From contig CM024168.1 in assembly GCA_013433145.1 (NCBI GenBank), positions 10,796,184 through 10,860,183 of the forward strand: 64,000 bases of DNA, given 5' to 3'. The stretch's first letter is position 1, and every line of letters begins with the position of its first letter. Positions 35,302 through 56,962 of this stretch are shown here, one piece after another. The notes under the pieces were generated by a model, which saw nothing but the letters and a program-made list of their open reading frames with translations, was not told the origin of the DNA and did not search any database. Source of the stretch: Ascaris suum. Lineage: Eukaryota > Nematoda > Chromadorea > Rhabditida > Ascarididae. The position numbers and the translations under genes are program-made.

Positions 35302-36048
35302 CTAAAGTGCTTGAAACATTTCTTTGATTAAACTTTTAATACCTTGCCTACAGGGATAGGCGAACTTATAAACTAATTCTGGTTTACTAACAAATGCCTT
35401 AAATAAGTATTTTTCCACTAGTGTAACACATAGACCTTTTTCTTTATAATTTTTAAGCAGACCTTTACATTTATTAATAGAAGCTGTCCTAATTGAACAT
35501 ATGTTGCTAAATCGGAAGACCTGCGAAATTATAAGTTTTTTGTGTATGAACGCTGGAAAATTACTGTCTAATTGAGTATACTTGTTCGCTGCAAAATTAA
35601 AATCTTCCGTCTTATCGTACACGCTTGAAATGACACCTTTGCCGGTAACGTTTAAGTTTAAGTCCAAGAAATTAGCCTTGCTTCCGGTATATGTGATTTC
35701 AATTTGCAAAGAATCCCCATAAATTATTTTAGCAATATTGTGAAAATTTTCTGTATTAAGTATTAGTAAATCATCGACGTACCTACAACAAATAGCATTA
35801 AAGCGCGAAATTTTGGCACATTTATATTCCATGAGAGACAAAGTGAGATCGGCAATATCAGGACTGGCATTACCACCCATAGGTACTCCTTTAGTTTGCC
35901 TAAAAACAAAACCGCAGGAAGTAACATAGCTTTCTTTAATAATAAACTTAATCATTTCCATAATTCGTGCCTTATCCAAAGCAAGTGCGTGTGCATTAAA
36001 CTCGAAATTGTCCGTGTAAAATAAGACTTTGTCGTTGCAAACTTTCAA
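35302..36048 (-). pseudogene. Reverse transcriptase C-terminal half
   Basis: 248 codons from an internal Met. Visible motifs: FRQTKGVPMGGNASPD around residues 48-64 (fingers/palm motif B), CCRYVDDLLIL around residues 87-97 (catalytic motif C with the two Asp), KANFLDLNLNV around residues 123-134 (motifs D/E) and a thumb-like region (FRFSNICSIRTASINKCK). The C-terminus ends after KEMFQAL with no endonuclease domain. Penelope RT copies RNA into DNA at the insertion site. The upstream half, including the motif A Asp, is in other frames, so this copy cannot give one active protein as assembled. Confidence 0.8.
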
Positions 36049-36470
36049 ATAGGCTTTTTTTTGAATTTTCAGAACACAAGTGTGTTAAAAATTCCATTGC
36101 TTTAATAATATGTTCGTGTGGCAGAGCAGTGAATAAGGTGGAAAAATCAGCAGTCAGAATCGTTTAAACATATTTTTTAACTACATCCAAAACATCATAA
36201 GAATTTTTAGCGCCACAATAATAATTAATCCCGCTTCTTTGACTAGCTATATTACAATAACTGCGAAAATGGTTTTTAAAAAGTTTTAAAATGTTATGCA
36301 ACAAGCAAGATAGTGGTTTTAGAGAACTTTTACTGGCCCCAGCTATAAAAGAAACTTGTAGAGATTTTTATGTAATTTAGGAATGGCAAACATTTTGGGT
36401 AACGTTGCATTTCCCTCATTAACGTTAATAAAATACCTTTCAGAAAACTTGCGGTGCGTATTAATAATAT

Positions 36471-36983
36471 CTAGTTCTGCGTATTTTCAACATGCTCATA
36501 GGTGTCATTGCCAATAATCCTACCGTTGATAATTGCAAGTTCATTACTTAAGTTTTGAATATAAAAGTTTTTGCATATAAAAGCAGAATTATTGTCAGCT
36601 TTATCCACAGGTGCAATAATAAATTTAGATTGCATATTGGTAAGTATTATACTATTATGGTAATCTAGACCATGAGCTATATCGATTTCTCCTTTATAAA
36701 ATTCGTTATTAAAAATATCTTTAATGCGCCGCATAGCCAACATATGAAATGTTATAAAATTGACCACGTTAGTGTGCTCGGTTCGAGCAATTTGCAGAAT
36801 TAGTTTGTTTAAAGATTGCGCTGCATCCTCTATAATAGGGAGAGGATGCTTATTAATGATGTTATGTTTTGCACGAGAAAGCTTATTCAAGCTTCTCTTC
36901 AACTGCATCTGCTCCTGGGCTAGAATGTCTATGTGTTCATGGCTTTGCTCTATTTTGCTCCGCAAAATGTGCAATTTGCTCAT
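36471..36983 (-). pseudogene. Reverse transcriptase N-terminal part
   Basis: 170 codons. The first 60 residues are charged and helical (SKIEQSHEHIDILAQEQMQL), the rest includes SKFIIAPVDKADNNSAFICK, the conserved block that precedes the RT core in Penelope-like proteins. Upstream in a different frame, MSKGKIASYQVGRMLTEVLQ looks like more N-terminus, cut off by a frame change around 36985. Confidence 0.65.
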
Positions 36984-37080
36984 GTATGCTCATCATCTTG
37001 TAAAACTTCGGTGAGCATGCGTCCAACTTGATAGGAGGCTATTTTGCCCTTGCTCATTTTCGCATGAGTTTTTCTTACTT

Positions 37081-39244: not shown

Positions 39245-41340
39245 TCTCATTTTTCATCCTTTCTGTGGACTCGCAAAAGTTCACTCCACCTTATAAATTT
39301 ATTGCCGAGATTTCGCAAATGCGGCGTTATTCAGTTGCAGCATACGGATGTTCATCAAGTACAGACGTTCTATATAACTATCAAATACAGCAATGTTACT
39401 GAAATTTCTATGTCGCATTACGCTGAAAACATCCTCATGTCTTCACAGCAAGGGTGATCGTCGAAAGAAAAAAAATTGCTGCTCTTTTTTCGATTTAGAA
39501 TTCACGAGTAATTCAATTAAGTGAGGGTCAGAGTTGCGCGGACTGGTTAGTATACTTTCACTGCCCTTGAAGATGCTTCCGTGGTTCATGCTATGCTACT
39601 AGTGTTTTTCAACACGGATCATAGGTGCCAAAACTTATGTGGGTGTGATACCCCAAGCCATGCATATGACAGCAAGAAGGCTATGAATATGAGCAACATC
39701 GTAATTACTACAGGTGGTGACGCTGGAAACAGTCGGAGCTGCTCCTAGTGGCGCTGTTTCCAAAGAGCTTACTCTGTGCTTTCTTTACTACTTTTTACTC
39801 TTAGCGCTTCCACTCCGATTACTTGCTGCGACACATAGCTACCAACCCCCCACTGAAAATTTGTTCTACACTACACACTATCCATTTCCACTTTTTCTTC
39901 GAAGGCTATGAAATTTGAAACATACTGCACGGGTTTACTTAGAGTTTCTCACTGTTATTTGCATGATATAATAATAGCGAAGTCTGGACACGAAACGTTG
40001 AAGCCACCGCAAACTAGGGACGCAGAGACACTTGATTCTTTCATTCTTTTCGCTGTCCTGGAGTACTGGATTTCCGAAACCATCTGAGTGCAGTATAGGG
40101 TTTCGATCGTCGTCTTAATTAAGTACAATAATGGATCAAATATTATTCAGTCTCTTTAGTCACGGAGTTTGTCCATAACCTATATTCAGGATGTATGGTG
40201 TGGCGATTTCATCGGTTAAATGTTACGTGGCGTCAACTGATTATGAGCTCAAAATCGTGGATATGTTTGAAGATCCAAGAGTTAAACAGAAATGTTCTTC
40301 GTACTTGTCGGTTAGTGTACCTCATTTGTTGAGCAGTGTTACGGAATGGTGAGAAAGTGCTCCTTCCTTTCGTGCACCTTCAGTTTTATTTTCTGTGTAA
40401 CGAAGCATTATCAGCGCGGCATTGCAGGAATCTTGCCAAATAGTGGTGCAACTTCACTCACAACTCTGCTATCGATAGAATCATGCCTGGTTCCTTTCCG
40501 TTCATTCTCCACCGTTTTGTTCTTTGCACCTTTGAATTTAATTGCCAAGTTTTCCGTAATTTTCTGTGCTCATCCTAAAGCGAGAGGAAAATTTTCTGCA
40601 TTGCACATTTTACGTGCAATAAAGTTCCAACTCAGTCCTTGGATGGTTGAAGCAGTAGTTATACCAAACGGCTCTCAAGCACTCCGGATGAAGTTTCTGG
40701 GTAGAGGAAGTTTTTCGGACTAGTATTAATTGCATCTGATTTGTCATGTAAGCCGTACAATGTGTTACAACTTGTGGATTTTTGAATACCTTGGGTCAGC
40801 GAATCTTCGAAGAAATTAACACCTTTAACGCCAGTTTTGGAGATTTTGCAGCTCAGCGACACTCTTGATGTGGTTTTCGTGTTCGACGCACGTGTGCAAT
40901 GATTGCTTGCTGCTTGGTAACAGAAAAGGTTAAAAATTTGAGAGACGAGGGCGATTCCATTTCCCTCCACTGCTGTTGGCCGAGGCCGTTTGAAGGGTGC
41001 AAGATCTGGAAATTCTGCATTGCCGCGTAGCCCTCGAAAATATCATTGTCAGACATTGGAATCCCCCGATTAATTTGCTGTTGTCCGATCCTAAGTGTGT
41101 GAAGTTTCCCGACTGCACCAGCTCGCCTGACTATGGATTTTTCGCTCGCTCACATAATGCGGAGAAGTTCGAAATTCCGACTATACGTCGAAATTTCCAA
41201 TAAAAAATTCGGCTCGCTTTCAGTAGAAGCATGTCAGAAGTCTTGTCGGAGGCCCTATTCTCTCTTCTCATTTCTCGCTTGCCTCTGTCTCCTTCACAGA
41301 AATCCTTCAAGTCATTCCATTTTCAGTTTCACAGGAATAA
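39245..41340. other. No confident gene
   Basis: A 125-codon plus frame (40346-40723) and overlapping minus frames (40659-41118) contradict each other. A word CGAGGGCGATTCCATTTCC near 40946 recurs in modified form near 48680, suggesting a dispersed repeat. Confidence 0.3.
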
Positions 41341-41343
41341 AAG

Positions 41344-41457
<114 letters not shown>

Positions 41458-41835
41458 GCGACTGCGCGTGAAAAATGGTACAAAGAGGGGGTCAGTGATT
41501 TGTCTTCAAACTGTATGAAGGCACAAAACTAAAAGAGGTTGAGGTTGTTGACTGGCCATCAGATAGTGTTATCCGCAAGAAGAGGGGATTCATGTACGAG
41601 CAACACAAACGGGCACAAAGACGCCATGTTAGGGCTTTGCCTTTAAACTCCTTAAAGGCAAAAGGTGCCATAAACGTGTCAGAAAAGTTATGCGCGAATG
41701 AGTAAACAAAATGGAAGTTGATTTAATGCCGCAGAAGTTTGCCGGAGCGGGTAATGATGGGGTCAAAGCAAACAAAGATTGGGGATTTTGACGGGCTAAT
41801 CACATATGTTATGATGAGCGCAAATTAGCAAAACA

Positions 41836-42440
41836 ACCTTTGGGACCAATTATAGAAGGGACGGGCCAAAAGCATCCGAAGGTGTTAACAAGAAGGCTAC
41901 ATAAAAGAGCCCAAGGGTTCGGCAACACAGTGACTTCGATCGGAGCTGCGACTCCGACGGTTGGCTTCGATGTTTCCCTTTTTTTGCTTTTCGTTCATGT
42001 CTAGATAATGTAAGCGTATCTGTTAGTTGAATAGCAATGTTATAGAAAATCATTTGAGATTTCTTCGGTTTTTGAAGTTCGTGCATGTAGTCGAAAGAAT
42101 AGCACTCGAGTTTCTTCGAATTCTTGATTTATCCCATGGTAAGCATCTCTGAGAGAAAAAAGTGTCCCCATCTTTGCGTTTATTGACTAAATAAAGTAAG
42201 CGTATCTTTTAGTGGGCTGTAAGGTTATAGACTGTCCTTGGATTTTTTCGGCTTTGATTTGATCCCAATGTATGTGTGTCGTTGTAACTGATGGTTACTT
42301 TTTGAATATCATTGAGTTTTTTCCGCCTGATTTTTATCCCATTGCACATGTAGTTGAAAATTAATTGTTACTTCTTCGCGATTTTATTTTCTAGACGTGA
42401 TAATAAAGGTTTAATTACCCAAGTTTGAGGTGGGTTCACA
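41836..42440 (+). mobile_element. LTR-like block (inferred)
   Basis: Signs of an LTR: a TATA-like ATAAAAG at 41901 followed about 28 bases later by an ACAGTG start-like element near 41929, a GC-rich leader with an inverted GGAG/CTCC pair, and AATAAA at 42402. Two diverged copies of a unit of about 185 bases (GTAAGCGTATCTGTTAG at about 42010 and GTAAGCGTATCTTTTAG at about 42193) fill the middle. No matching second LTR was found; ACCTTTGGGA-CAA words at 41837 and 42857 are the only shared pair. So the call rests on architecture, not on a repeat pair. Confidence 0.35.
42408..42429 (+). ncRNA. Exact SL1 spliced-leader 22-mer
   Basis: All 22 bases match the canonical nematode SL1 exon (begins GGTTTAATTACCC, ends AAGTTTGAG), followed by GTGGGT where an SL RNA gene has its splice donor. 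It is preceded directly by AATAAA. A functional SL RNA gene should continue with a short intron-like part carrying an Sm site (AATTTTTGG type); none is seen in the next 100 bases, only GATATTTGTATTG. So it is more likely a copied leader, from a reverse-transcribed trans-spliced RNA, or an SL pseudogene, than an active SL1 gene. The identity of the 22-mer is certain; its origin is inference. Confidence 0.6.
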
Positions 42441-42552
42441 AAACAGTGGGAAGGTGCACCAGGTCGTTGCACAGCAGAATCTGATATTTGTATTGTAAGA
42501 CGAACCACCTCAACGTCAAGAGGATATTCTTGGGTAACTGGCAGAGGAAAGA

Positions 42553-42795
42553 AAGGTGATCATTGACGAGTGGAGAGCGTCAATATTTGGAGCAGCGCGA
42601 CAACTAGGCCGGTCGCAGCAGACGGGAGCTCAGTGATTGGGATCGTCGACTCCAACGGTGGTCGCGGTTGGATCGACACCAGTGGATAAAGAGGCAGTTC
42701 GACGGTGGATCAGGAACGCCACGCGTCAATTCAGAGAGCTGACTATGGCAGACAGCGGACAACGAGCAACAACAGGGACTAAGCCTAGTTTTTAA
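42553..42795 (+). pseudogene. Open frame with one TGA after the LTR-like block
   Basis: A frame reads EERKVIIDEWRASIFGAARQ, meets a TGA at about 42632, and continues in the same frame with VDKEAVRRWIRNATRQFREL and MADSGQRATTGTKPSF to a TAA. The position just after an LTR-like block would suit a gag start, but no gag family motif is recognised. Confidence 0.3.
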
Positions 42796-42962
42796 TAGTG
42801 ATATTTCCTTTCCTCTTGTTTTTTCTTCTTCTTTGTTTATATTGTTTCTCCACGAACCTTTGGGAACAAACTATTATATAGTCAAAAATATTGACCAACT
42901 TCACACCTTCACTAACACAACAATCAACCCACAAGGGGAGGAAAGTGTGAGTGGTTAATACT

Positions 42963-42966
<4 letters not shown>

Positions 42967-43040
<74 letters not shown>
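42967..43040. repeat. (AT)37 microsatellite
   Basis: 37 uninterrupted AT units, the second of two long AT tracts bounding a 1.5-kb island. Its flanks hold an imperfect inverted pair (CACAAGGGGAGGAAAGT on the left, ACTCTTCCCCTTAGGG on the right). Confidence 0.98.
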
Positions 43041-43043
<3 letters not shown>

Positions 43044-43413
43044 AACTCTTCCCCTTAGGGATGTGCAGTTCTTGTGCTCATTCACAACACATAGTTTAGC
43101 ACGGTGAAGAATAGCCAGCTGAGGCTTGCGAAGAACGCAGGAAATAGGTAAGAGCCTGGGCGAAGAAATCCTCGATAGTCCTTTTTCCTGAGCCAGAAAG
43201 CGCGCTGCCGTAGCTGCGTGTTTAATGTGCGATGTTTTTAATTGCCACTAGAAGATCGACACTGTTAACAGGAACGTTCTATCTGCCGCTGAAGACTCCA
43301 AATTCCCTCATTTCCTCCGTGTAAAGATCTGTTTACGAACCTGCTGGTGTCAGATAGACTAGGTTCAAAATTCAGCATCCATTTATCCGCTTTCAATCTA
43401 AAATAATTTGCAG

Positions 43414-46066
43414 GTTTTCTTTCGGAAGCACTGCGCAGTAGCGGCATATTTGAACGAGACCAACTTGATGTTGGTAATAGATGCCGACACGGGGGTAGTG
43501 AACCCGAACCACTGCGTTGAGGAATATATCGACGACCGTGTCAATCTGATATTCTATGAGCGTTTCTTCACTTGGGAAATTACGAGTGGCACTATTTAGT
43601 TTGTTTCATTCTTTTGAGCGCTTCACTGAATCTGAACGCTTAATACGGCATTACAATTGAACGCATAATAATATCAACGAATGGACTGGGTCTGTGCGAA
43701 TGGCTCGGTGTAGTCTTAAACAGTTTGTGCATGTTTGTTTTCCTGGATTGTCTTTAGCTGCTGCCGTCTTTTAAAAGATCACATATAGAGGCCGGCTGTG
43801 CGGGGACGAGCAGTTGAGCATGGAAACGATGACTTCGGAACAGTACATCATGCAGGTGAAATAACCATTTTTTTGACTTCTTCAGTGCAATCAAAAGCGC
43901 AAGTTTAATCAAACGAGCTTGCAGCCTACAAATAGGAAATCGTAACCATATTTTGAAAGCGGTAATTCCTGCTGGTTAATTGCGTCTGAGCGGAATACCT
44001 TAAATGATCGAGTCATTTCTCCTTGTGCTGAACGATGAGGCCAATGATGCACCGTCGATACGTTGTCCAAGCAGTTGTCAACTTTTCTTCTCAACAGCTG
44101 CGGCATTCGATGAGCGGACGAGTTAACACAGTGATGCATTCTGTCCTTTATTTGCCGACCAACTCATGTTTGCTTTCCAAATATGAATTGAACAGGAGCC
44201 CGCTCTGCCAGGGTTTAAGCAAGCTGATATAGATTGAGGAATTCTGTGTTCATGGCGTAGGTTTATCTGACAAAGGAATTGTTTCATCTGACACGCAATA
44301 CGTTTCATCTCACTTTCGAAGTTATTATCATACTTCTTGGACATAAGCTCTCAGATATACCTCATCAAAGAAGATTTTTAGATCGCTAATCAGTGGATTC
44401 ATCTGGTCAGCGTTGAAGCAAACTTGGAACGCAATTCCACCTTTCATTCTCGATCTTATCGCTTCTCTACAAGCAGACTTGAGTGCGCTTGCGGCATGAG
44501 CAGTTTTTTTTGCAACACGAACGTCTTCTGCGCGAGAATCCGCTTAATCCTTCCTAAATGATGCATCTAGGACCTTTGCCACGACGCTAATGTTACGCAA
44601 CATCAGTGCATTTGTCGCCTGCAAAAATTTTACTTAAACTCATCTGCTTTTTGCGTTTTCCGCTCCAGAGGGTAAACATGCAGTTAACTCAAAAGTGACA
44701 GTCGAAGGGGAGTTGTCAGACAAGTGTAGGTAAGATGGTTGCGCCTGAACCTTGATAAAAGATTTCCAAAGCGGCTTTTAAAATAGGCTTTTTGCAAGAT
44801 GTATCACGCATTCAAAGTCAGCACTCGCGATATAATGCATGTAATTATGTAGTGAGTGCATAGATAATTGTATACATTATACATTCGTATGACAGAATGC
44901 ATGCAACCATGTGCTTGTAATGTTAATTATAAGCATGTGGCACCCGAAGCGGGGTGGCGGGGCGATGGACATTGGATGAGTCTTCATGGAATGATCTCAG
45001 ACAAATTTTTCTCAGTATTATCTTTCACAGGCAAAAAATTCCGAATATACGCAGAAGTTTCTCATGAAATGGGCGGATTATGAATTTCTCGAACTGGGTA
45101 GGATAATGGAAAATTTTGGGAGAGAAATTTCGTGTTTTTAAATTCACTGGGACGTAAATTATTACCTCATTCACTCGTGAACGACAGCATCGGCGCTATG
45201 GTCGAGTTTATTTCAGGCAGTGTTTCTCGATGCACTTTTCTCGAGGCGGTCGCAGGAATATAAAAACTGCGAGGCCACTTGGTACGAATCGAATGGCTAT
45301 GAGGCGTACATCCAGTTTGTCATGTGCGTTCGTCTGTACATCGGTTCGAATTTATGCAGTTTTTCCTACCATGCAGTCCCATTATTTCACGCTAAACAAA
45401 CCCGAATTTGTCATCCTGCTGGGCTCTTGCACGACTATCATCAAATATCTCATTGAAAAAGTGAATTTCAGCCGTCGAAGTCAGTGGTTATTGATGATGT
45501 AGTGTAATATTATATAGCTTTATTGATTCAGCCGATTATGCCAGAGAGCGCTTCATATGAATGTGACAGGTGCAGTGAATTCTAATAACCTATTGTTGAG
45601 TTTATGGATTGCTGAGGGAGAGCATCTGCAGAGTATCTACCAAGTACTGAAGGCTTCTAGATCCGAGCGTCTTTTGTTTCCGTATGCTCTGTAATGCTGG
45701 TGCACGATTATCGATTTCATTTCTTTGCTAGCGTTGAAGCTTTGTGCTAAACTTCCTGAAGGCTTGCAGGTTATAAAAAAGAAACACAAGCGAACAACGT
45801 TATATAAGTGCCGTCTTTTGCAGATTATTTGTTCTTTTTCATTCCTCGTGTTTAATGCTAGTTTAAAATTCGTCCCACTTGACGTCTCGTTATCAAGCTT
45901 AGCTTCTGCACGTGTATGGCCTGGCAAACTTCGACTTCTTCGAAGAGCACATGGAATGGCACGGGACTGGCTGTACTCTACAGATGAATAGTGCAGTGCG
46001 GATTTCATGTTCCACGGTTGGAAGCACAGCCGGATCGAGGAAGATGGATGGCTGTCACCGTTCACC
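43414..46066 (+). pseudogene. DUF273 (glycosyltransferase-like) gene, probably broken
   Basis: Exons: a, 43414-43590 ([48 protein letters not shown]); b, 43789-43855 (HGNDDFGTVHHA); c, 45031-45097 (AKNSEYTQKFLMKWADYEF); d, 45221-45343 (FLDALFSRRSQEYKNCEATW); e, 45903-46066 (GKLRLLRRAHGMARDW, ADFMFHGWK). These match the DUF273 family of nematodes: a [11 protein letters not shown] core (DxD-type metal/nucleotide-sugar site), KW.DYEF, HG.D.G..H, and FM.HGWK. Junction d-e is in phase. Two defects: a TAG at 45989-45991 where the family has Trp, and block b lies before c although it should follow it in the protein. 5' exons were not found. Family enzymes are predicted Golgi or secreted glycosyltransferases. 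Confidence 0.75.
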
Positions 46067-54100: not shown

Positions 54101-54368
54101 CACGGCTTTAGTGGAGTGGATGAAATCTGAAGAACATGCTGACTGTTCGAAAGACGCGGCGAATCAGTGAACGATAATTTGGTGGACAATATGGACGTCG
54201 ACGAAAGAAAGGGAAATGGAAGTTGAAAATTGCTTCTTCAGTTGACTGCTGCGTGTGCTGTATGAAGTCTTCAAGATGGTAGATCAACGTTCTGTCAACG
54301 GTTATTTTAAAACAACGTCTTGTAGAGTGGGAAGTGTTGTACAGCACGTCTACATTGAAGCGGTACGG

Positions 54369-56962
54369 ATGGGTAAAGACTACTACAAAACGCTGGGCAT
54401 ATCAAAGAACGCCTCCGAGGATGAGATCAGAAGAGCTTATCGTAGAATGGCGCTGAAATACCACCCAGATAAAAACAAAGAGCCTGGAGCTGAGGCTAAG
54501 TTTAAAGTGTGTTTGCATTTCGGTGTAGCAAATGGAGAGATTACTACTGCTTCGTCAGTAGGACACAGGTCAGGGATAGTGAGGGTAGAAGATGTTTCAA
54601 GGCTTGGGCTTTGCGTAACCTATCTCAGACTGAAGTCTTTTAATGAAATGCTAGACTCTAATCTGCTATTACAAAGCTACAGGCGCTTGTGTATGCAGAT
54701 GTGGGTTAGAGCGTACAAGAAACATAGTCACAATATCGAATGACTATATATTTCTTGACCAGTGTATTTGGGGAAATGGCTGGAGGTGCAACAGAGGAGG
54801 AGGAGTATAGGCATTTGATATATTCACAGTAATTCTACATCACCTATCAGTGCTCCTCCTTGTGCTTTCGACGTCACGCATCAGATATACAATAGCGTTG
54901 AATGGGAACTGTTGGACAACAAAACGACACTTGAAGGGCTCGGGTGTAAGGCATATGGTCATGCCCATTTGTCCTGGATGCAAATATTTTTGCTCCTACA
55001 TTTAGCACTGAACTAGGTTGAACAAGGTATTGGTCGTCAGAGCAGAGCTGTGACTGAAAGTAGCGTTCACTGTTCAGGAAGTCGCCGAGGCGTACGATGT
55101 GCTGTCGGATCCTAAGAAGAAGGAAGTTTATGACAATTTCGGTGAAAGTAGACTGAAAACAGGAAGCGGAGGAGCACCCGACTCCTTTCACTATGAATTC
55201 GAGTCAGTGATTTTGAAATAATTAAAAAATTCAACAAGGCACATTGACGTCGATGTATCACTATGCTAGTGCTCTATTCATTTCACGTGCTGTCGCAACC
55301 TGTTATGCGGGAAAGCTTCGACTATGAATCCACCCGAGAACAGGCACAAGCAGAATTACTCTAAAGGATGATGCAGCAAGTGGGGAAATTCTGGGAATAA
55401 CAATTTTTGCAGGCTGGTCTTGGAGATAGCAGATAAGTGCTAGGAAGAGCCTGGTCAATAAAATGGGAGCTGTGCAAAAACGGTACCGTACCTTTTCACC
55501 TTAAACGCATACTAAAACGAGTCCAATACGTGCTTGCAATGTTTCCTCAATGCCAACATGCGAAGAAATGGTGGCATTAACCTCAGTTTTTACTTACTTC
55601 GCGCAGATTGTCTCCGAAAAAAATGCGCTGGTAGGCACTGCTATACAGTTTTTAGAAACAATCGGCCGGTCGTTTACACTTATGCGCGGTTCTGGTGACA
55701 ATGATTTTATGGTTGCAACATAGCTTGCGTAGTTAACATAGTTAACATGCTTGCAGATAAAAAGACCGTTTAGGATGACGTCTCTTGTTCTGAAGTCCTT
55801 AAAGTTCGACCCATTTTTGAGGTCATGAGAGCCTTAGAGTGGCTTTTTAGTTTAAAACGAAACGTATTTCACTCGTTTATTTTAACGTCATGGTGCGGGA
55901 ACGCACAGAAGTATGCCAACACCAACAGCTAGAAAAAGCGGTGTGCAAAAAACTACAGTTCGGTCGAATAGGCACGCGATACTTGAAAGCAGTAATACTG
56001 CTAGATCGAAACGATAGAGCTGGAGCTAAAAGTCGGAGAGATGGGTCATCAAAAATATTGGTGGGAAACACACTCCAAACCCGTACTACACGAAACTGGA
56101 AGCTTGGAGAACGTTGTTCATGCCGAAACGTTTACTGGCTAATTCAATTTGCTGCAACGTAGAGCACGAGCCAGGGTGGATTGGAATATTTCTGAAGCGG
56201 GATGCCGGAAAAGTCACCACAGTTTGCAATAAGTCGAGTCAAATTTTAGCCTCCGGTATTCTAGTGACCTAGATTATAGATCTCTTGTTCGGTATGTAGC
56301 TTTGACTCGGTTTCGACAAGAAACCTTCAGCTTCGACATATTGACTATACACCGATTTGTATGGTTTGTATGGTTTACGCACTATTTTTTAGCCATTCTA
56401 CTAAACTCTTATGAATGAGATGTCATTCTGTTGACGAGTTTTTCTTCACTAGCCCTGTTGCGTTTGCCGGCCTCTAGCATTTTAGTGATTATCAGTTTTG
56501 TGGCATAGCATCTACATATCGGAATGCTGTATCTTGTTCCTATGTTTTCCGATGATCACTTGATTGCATTCTCTAGAAACGAAGAAATCCGCCTGCATGA
56601 GAAGCCAGAGGTACAATGATAGTGACAGTGGTGTTTTTTACAACGGTGAGAATATCTTTTGTCAAACTGTGGTTATGTCTATCGATAGAACGACTTGCAG
56701 CAGAAAGTCTAAGTCAAACGGACATTTGTGCGATGGCCAGGCTCCTCAATTAAAGGCCACATTCTTTATAATGCTTTCGCCTGACAAATGAGTGGCCGCG
56801 CTTAGTGCATTGCTGGTGACCATTTCAGGGGTGATCCGTTACAAATGTTCAGCCAGTTCTTTAGAAAGGAGAAGCAGTTTGCTTCGTTTTTCGGTGGAAG
56901 CGGTGGCTCTAGCATGTTCTTCGGGACAACCTCTCTCGAGGACGACATACTCGCTTTTGATG
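54369..56962 (+). CDS. dnj-13: Type-II DnaJ/HSP40 co-chaperone (DNAJB1-like), 5' exons
   Basis: Exon 1 (54369-54506) is a J domain start: [20 protein letters not shown], helix [12 protein letters not shown], and the HPD triad at residues 32-34 that activates HSP70 ATPase, then [13 protein letters not shown]. Exon 2 (55078-55202, after GTTCAG) completes it with [22 protein letters not shown] and a Gly-rich start. Exon 3 (56829-56962, after CATTTCAG) joins in phase and reads [20 protein letters not shown] then [12 protein letters not shown] and [10 protein letters not shown], the G/F region of DNAJB1-type proteins. Residue order and intron phases match this subfamily closely (C. elegans dnj-13, human DNAJB1). 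The C-terminal substrate-binding domains should follow 3'; a possible trace (AECSLENILKFI near 57470) is weak. Start chosen at MGKDYY because the family begins there; an upstream in-frame Met is ignored. Confidence 0.88.

Follow-up and report, generated by a model that had tools for sequence, protein, structure and literature searches.

Spliced leader SL1 as an internal part of BEL/Pao long terminal repeats in Ascaris suum, and its possible role as the start of their R region

The nematode spliced leader SL1 is present as an exact 22-mer in the 64-kb stretch of Ascaris suum DNA analysed here (the window), at 42408-42429 on the plus strand, where it forms an internal part of a solo long terminal repeat (LTR), of a class designated A, of a BEL/Pao LTR retrotransposon (41454-42961, plus strand). 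Elsewhere in the genome SL1 likewise occupies a fixed internal place in LTRs, namely at 98 of 110 examined occurrences and in five LTR classes (A, A2, B, C and D). We propose, with a probability of about 0.6 and on the grounds of sequence anatomy, that SL1 is the start of the R region in these BEL/Pao lineages, and that the element RNA would begin, and probably end, with the leader of its host. A first-pass annotation of the window had suggested either a leader-tagged retrocopy or a mobile element carrying its own SL1, and it is the second suggestion that was borne out, the element being a BEL/Pao LTR.

The identity of the leader is not in doubt, as the window contains a single match to SL1 at up to three mismatches and 100 shuffled versions contain none, in keeping with the annotation's statement that the 22 bases equal SL1 exactly and that chance is excluded. 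Also as annotated, SL1 follows directly on an AATAAA (42402-42407, plus strand), which likely serves the 3' LTR transcript as its poly(A) signal, and the proposed start and main part of R, and thus the putative RNA 5' end, would be SL1 itself. The GU-rich GTGGGTT at 42430-42436 (plus strand), 22 bases past AATAAA, was picked out by eye and may be a downstream poly(A) element. The annotation further held that no Sm site follows and that the locus is not a recognisable SL RNA gene, and both statements stand: an Sm-like motif, as patterned, is absent from 42430-42961, no Rfam family reaches its gathering cut-off in the 64-kb window, a tRNA search of the window found none, and the 86 bases 3' of SL1 match those of a true SL RNA gene (L080) at only 24 of 86 ungapped positions, or 37 of 88 columns when gapped. 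The window SL1 thus lacks the Sm site, the RF00198 match and the 5S repeat context of SL1 RNA genes and is internal to a repeat with LTR ends, and an SL RNA gene or pseudogene at 42408 was rejected. A retrocopy of a trans-spliced mRNA was rejected as well, since such a copy should begin at SL1, whereas the repeat begins 954 bases 5' of it and the copies compared have SL1 in their interior. Although the exactness of SL1 would suit a gene, a pseudogene or a leader-tagged retrocopy, we regard these explanations as practically out of the question.

We surveyed the 277.8-Mb assembly (97 contigs) and found 251 exact SL1 22-mers, and none for a reversed-pattern control. SL1 is followed by GTA in 104 copies, and the 100 of these that were listed are all on contig C19, nearly all in arrays with a period of about 1.03-1.05 kb. 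An Rfam scan of two of the array loci (L080 and L083) showed SL1 RNA genes alternating with 5S rRNA genes; RF00198 scored above cut-off in both arrays (50 scored), and an Sm site is present in L080. An isolated GTA-type copy (L079) had no Rfam match. The remaining 147 copies are outside the GTA type, and in 87 of them GTG follows SL1. The 110 examined come from these 147, lie outside the true SL gene arrays, include the window copy and its segmental duplicate, and were assigned to classes by the 200 bases on either side of SL1. By left and right class, the 98 LTR loci comprise A/A (15), A2/A2 (29), B/B (29), C/C (13), D/D (4), A2/A (7) and A2/B (1), and the other 12 occurrences fall outside the LTR classes. 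SL1 lies about 390-1050 bases from the left end of the LTR and 190-715 from the right, depending on class. When single representatives of A/A2, B, C and D were compared by blastn, they shared only a block of 23-29 bp at E<1e-5, consisting of SL1 and at most a few neighbouring bases; A and A2 additionally share U5 and the end of U3 (77% identity). At four loci (L021, L027, L070 and L121), SL1 is followed by loosely similar non-LTR sequence (72-81% over 36-89 bases) and preceded by unrelated DNA; these are possibly retrocopies of trans-spliced RNAs, which was the annotation's other option.

The 1.5-kb island that the annotation had described is a defined repeat unit between two microsatellites, an (AT)n array of 54 copies on the left (41347 to about 41453), which was the insertion target, and a (TA)n array of 39.5 copies on the right (42962-43040). 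The LTR begins with TGTCGCGAC and ends in ..TTAATAC followed by TATACA, where most other copies end in ..CAATACA, and it contains an internal direct repeat of 75% identity. Upstream of SL1 we place a putative U3 (41454-42407, plus strand) and downstream a putative U5 (42430-42961, plus strand), the end of which agrees with class A elements that retain an interior (L038 and L074), in which a putative primer site directly follows the same LTR end. A genome search for other copies of the island, a check that the annotation had proposed, recovered units with the same two ends (TGTCGCG..AATACA in class A), unrelated flanks and, in the copies compared, an internal SL1. Terminal TG..CA repeats with a short target duplication were found in copies other than that of the window, whose own duplication is unreadable because TA repeats adjoin it left and right. 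Under strict automatic criteria, 18 of 60 loci have perfect 5-bp target duplications, every one of the five classes being represented; the 60 also contain LTRs of full elements and non-LTR loci, which are not expected to show any. In all five classes the LTR typically starts with TGTCGCG, with a second CGCG within about 15 bases, giving a short inverted repeat at the tip. The window region 40757-44122, LTR and TA flanks included, also forms a segmental duplication with C1:10525935-10529255 (L002), about 311 kb away and 98.6% alike over at least this span.

The LTR status is further supported by elements in which two near-identical LTRs surround a coding interior, such as L038/L039 (LTRs 99.87% alike) and L041/L042 (100% over 1123 bp), and the assignment to BEL/Pao by Pfam domains in the interiors of A2 and B elements. 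Among ten open pieces of the class A2 element L054, Pfam matches comprise Peptidase_A17 (2.8e-47), RVT_1, DUF1758, Integrase_H2C2, rve and DUF5641, and four of the ten pieces are without a match. Two end pieces of the class B element L041/L042 match DUF1759 (5.4e-27), DUF5641 (3.5e-16) and rve, and a protein search with a class B gag piece gave five matches at 36-47% identity. The gag reading frames start alike in A, A2 and B, and the putative primer-site sequence TGGTGCCACGAGCCGGGA follows the LTR at once in A and A2 and at a distance of 13 bases in B; one strict pattern found no tRNA gene matching it. L054 belongs to an apparent head-to-tail array of class A2 (C7:3652283-3681505), with five exact SL1 copies about 7.3 kb apart and four Pao pol regions between them, of which the first unit was read. 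Viewed from the side of the elements, an exact same-strand SL1 lies at LTR distance in 8 of 42 Pao loci on contigs C1-C13 (split matches merged), and on both sides in 7. Such an SL1 is absent from the other 34, two of which have SL1 on the opposite strand, and some of the 34 carry long open frames, which suggests that other Pao lineages may do without SL1. No SL1 was found in the viral_contigs set.

The placement of a poly(A) signal is part of the argument for an R region. AATAAA or ATTAAA occurs within 25 bases upstream of SL1 at 42 of 54 LTR loci checked (part of the 98) and at none of four SL genes. By class, the hexamer is found in 12/12 loci of A, 13/15 of A2, 11/16 of B, 6/8 of C and 0/3 of D; AATAAA takes the same place as in the window copy in all 12 of class A and in 13/15 of A2. 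We count the loci without the hexamer (all three of D, 5/16 of B, 2/15 of A2 and 2/8 of C) against the R-region reading. A GU-rich stretch 3' of SL1 was seen by eye in A, A2 and B. This arrangement, a hexamer before SL1 and a GU-rich stretch after it, is that of a poly(A) signal closing U3, with the cut in or near SL1, and it would work best if the RNA started past AATAAA, which points to a start at SL1. A class A-type copy ending in AATAAA, the start of SL1 and poly(A) was looked for and not found. We also compared the 90 bases upstream of SL1, using one locus per class and one SL gene: for the SL gene against each class, 59-241 of 300 shuffles gave a shared motif as good, and the LTRs show no upstream similarity to the true SL RNA gene. 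Between classes, shuffles as good numbered 0/300 for A/A2, 10 for A2/B and at least 29 for the other pairs. By eye, one LTR (L125) is without the TAATAAA that immediately precedes SL1 in other copies.

In two mosaic LTR types, the change of class falls on SL1 or no more than about 30 bases from it. In the L057-type, for which four copies were aligned, the U3 next to SL1 is A2-like and the sequence is A-like from about SL1 on; this first switch was located around SL1 in 50-column windows from -31, and a second switch lies near alignment columns -680 to -630. Both L057 and L073 have 5-bp target duplications, which argues that the mosaic moved as an LTR. In L031, a class A2 U3 is joined to a class B U5 at SL1; this copy lacks a target duplication and may therefore have arisen by chromosomal recombination. 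A switch of class at R is what would be expected from strong-stop transfer between two RNAs.

Conservation of SL1 within a single class is weak. The class A set was gathered by similarity to 42300-42620, a segment that itself contains SL1, and among the 40 scored of 187 candidates, 24 of 39 copies have an exact SL1. Shared variants per site amount to 0.14 in SL1 against 0.19-0.35 around it (37 rows, with three near-duplicates left out), which corresponds to three shared variants over 22 sites, a value as low as that of 91 of 430 windows, and private variants are not reduced. SL1 in class A therefore decays after insertion much like its neighbours, and the strong evidence for its upkeep lies between the classes.

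Downstream of SL1, the LTRs contain a stretch complementary to it. In the window this is CTTGGGTAA (42529-42537, plus strand), a 9-base complement of SL1 positions 8-16 (42415-42423) that no shuffle out of 200 equalled in length, accompanied by GAACCACCTCAA (42502-42513, plus strand), which is complementary to the junction of SL1 and U5 and is predicted to form an inner helix. Each of A, A2, C and D has a complement at a position characteristic of the class, and so do five of the six B copies tested, in which it is mostly weak. Its length is 9 bases in A and A2 (0-4 of 200 shuffles as long), 8 in C (1-9) and 8-11 in D (0-5), and among the six B copies it is 7 bases in four (10-15 of 200), 10 in one (0) and 5 in one (174). 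As controls, the 200 bases upstream of SL1 gave complements no longer than 6-7 bases, with one exception of 8 (L012, class A), and downstream of SL1 in two SL genes the complement had 6 bases, a length reached by 110 and 131 of 200 shuffles. The stability of the predicted folds exceeded that of shuffled sequences in C (z -3.2), D (-3.8) and one B copy (-3.0) and did not clearly do so in A (-1.1), A2 (0.0) and a second B copy (-1.15). Over 16 sequences, 98.8% of the cells of the A/A2 hairpin pair, compared with 28-53% when the alignment is slid, and no pair changes on both sides, that is, there is no two-sided covariation. These predictions hint weakly that a partner stretch in U5 may fold over SL1 in the 5' RNA.

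Taken as the start of R, SL1 would serve the element as follows. Transcription would start at the first G of SL1, so that the RNA is born with the host leader as its 5' end. With AATAAA at the end of U3, only the 3' LTR would direct polyadenylation, with the cut in or just after SL1. SL1 would then be the terminal redundancy for minus-strand strong-stop transfer, after which both new LTRs would again read U3-SL1-U5, while U5 would supply the predicted partner able to fold over SL1 in the 5' RNA. From the anatomy, that is, the AATAAA upstream, SL1 as the sole block in common between classes and the mosaics at SL1, we infer that the element presents SL1 on its RNA. The annotation had thought of such an element as looking like a mature, capped mRNA, and an R-region role would explain more of the data than this disguise.

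The main rival holds that SL1 is renewed by trans-splicing, which would still leave it as R. The RNA would start upstream, host SL1 RNA would be spliced on at ..TTTGAG|U5, and reverse transcription would copy the host-supplied leader into both LTRs in each cycle. This would hold SL1 constant across unrelated LTRs even if the DNA were under no selection, and it would explain a perfect SL1 in otherwise unalignable LTRs beside ordinary decay after insertion; moreover, both Brugia malayi and A. suum put SL1 on downstream operon genes too. However, a transcript started upstream would carry AATAAA in its 5' LTR and risk ending there, and it is because upstream starts would include AATAAA that we prefer initiation at SL1. 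The usual nematode trans-splice acceptor is TTTCAG, from which the would-be acceptor TTTGAG departs, and the bases that precede SL1 (AAA, AAG, CAAGA and ACCA) contain no good acceptor by eye. In addition, the 8-kb RNA of Cer1 did not appear to be trans-spliced at its SL1 site in the passages that treat it (PMC3315495). We thus see renewal by trans-splicing as a real but minority prospect. The fuller proposal, in which trans-splicing, which would otherwise remove the 5' R of a retroelement in such a host, supplies R instead, each cycle takes a new R from host SL RNA, and unrelated elements can recombine through this common R, seems to us rather doubtful. Both initiation and trans-splicing would make SL1 the R region.

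Two further explanations would give SL1 another role. Perhaps SL1 acts mainly as a splice donor, SL1|GT being cis-spliced to an acceptor near gag to yield a message that looks trans-spliced; the GTG that follows SL1 in so many copies outside the GTA type would fit, as would AG dinucleotides seen by eye shortly before the gag ATG. Yet eight class C loci have AT rather than GT after SL1, and the predicted A/A2 hairpin, given its near-complete pairing, would cover the donor, though fold energies do not back that hairpin; we consider this role improbable. Or perhaps a Pao ancestor captured SL1 once, long ago, and it has been kept only as a promoter element in DNA, so that the RNA would carry no SL1. 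In favour of this idea, SL1 serves as a promoter element within Ascaris SL RNA genes, but the idea leaves unexplained both the placement of AATAAA and the mosaics at SL1, and we judge it highly improbable.

The preferred reading, with SL1 as the start of R, has parallels among known elements. Mouse mammary tumour virus (MMTV) and similar retroviruses have AATAAA in U3 and a short R; a poly(A) signal just before a short R would thus be a shared feature, although the R of MMTV is not a host spliced leader. NeSL-1, SLACS and CZAR are non-LTR elements that insert into SL genes and so also join a mobile element to a leader, but they target SL genes, whereas here the leader is part of the LTR and the flanks of the compared copies are unrelated. 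Tas, a BEL/Pao-type element of Ascaris, belongs, like the elements described here, to the nematode Pao lineage.

An association of SL1 with Pao elements is already in print. Passages of a study of B. malayi report 316 SL1 signatures, 120 of them outside SL1 gene arrays, with 60 of these 120 no more than 1 kb from Pao elements and occasionally two same-strand SL1 copies flanking one element; the inference drawn there is that expressed Pao RNAs acquired leaders and carried them along on integration (Foster et al., 2020; PMC7181701). The A. suum copies likewise lie outside SL gene arrays and beside Pao elements. In that account, SL1 is described as flanking the element and as a relic of earlier trans-splicing (PMC7181701). 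In A. suum, by contrast, complete LTRs contain SL1, each of the five classes has it at a single fixed position, a poly(A) signal is its neighbour in most cases, and mosaics switch at SL1. What we add to the published SL1-Pao association, as far as those passages describe it, is the LTR anatomy and the R-region reading. Cer1, a Ty3/gypsy element of C. elegans, is another nematode LTR retrotransposon associated with SL1: the passages on it report a short spliced mRNA found with and without SL1, the leader being added to RNA at an internal acceptor at which the 8-kb RNA did not appear trans-spliced, and, unlike the case here, they describe no SL1 in its LTR (PMC3315495). For Echinococcus, published passages describe the splicing of an LTR transcript to an ancestral trans-splice acceptor (PMC4558846). 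Among the matches listed by a literature search that was mostly without subscription papers, including those on Tas, we found no further study of SL1 within or next to LTRs.

Hosts that trans-splice replace the 5' ends of their mRNAs, which is a problem for an LTR element, whose RNA must have an identical R at each end for the first strand transfer. If the R-region reading is true, an R made of the spliced leader would solve this transfer problem whether the element initiates at SL1 itself or the host splices the leader on, and the element RNA would acquire the 5' sequence of a normal message. A practical warning also follows, in that read filters based on SL1 may count these LTRs as trans-spliced genes.

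Two other features of the window were observed. A segment at 35302-36989 (minus strand) contains a reverse transcriptase fragment at 35305-36084 (RVT_1, 3.2e-6), which appears Penelope-like from its motif, and a second open piece at 36474-36989 (minus strand) without a Pfam match. An exon encoding a DnaJ domain (8.1e-19) lies at 54246-54740 (plus strand).
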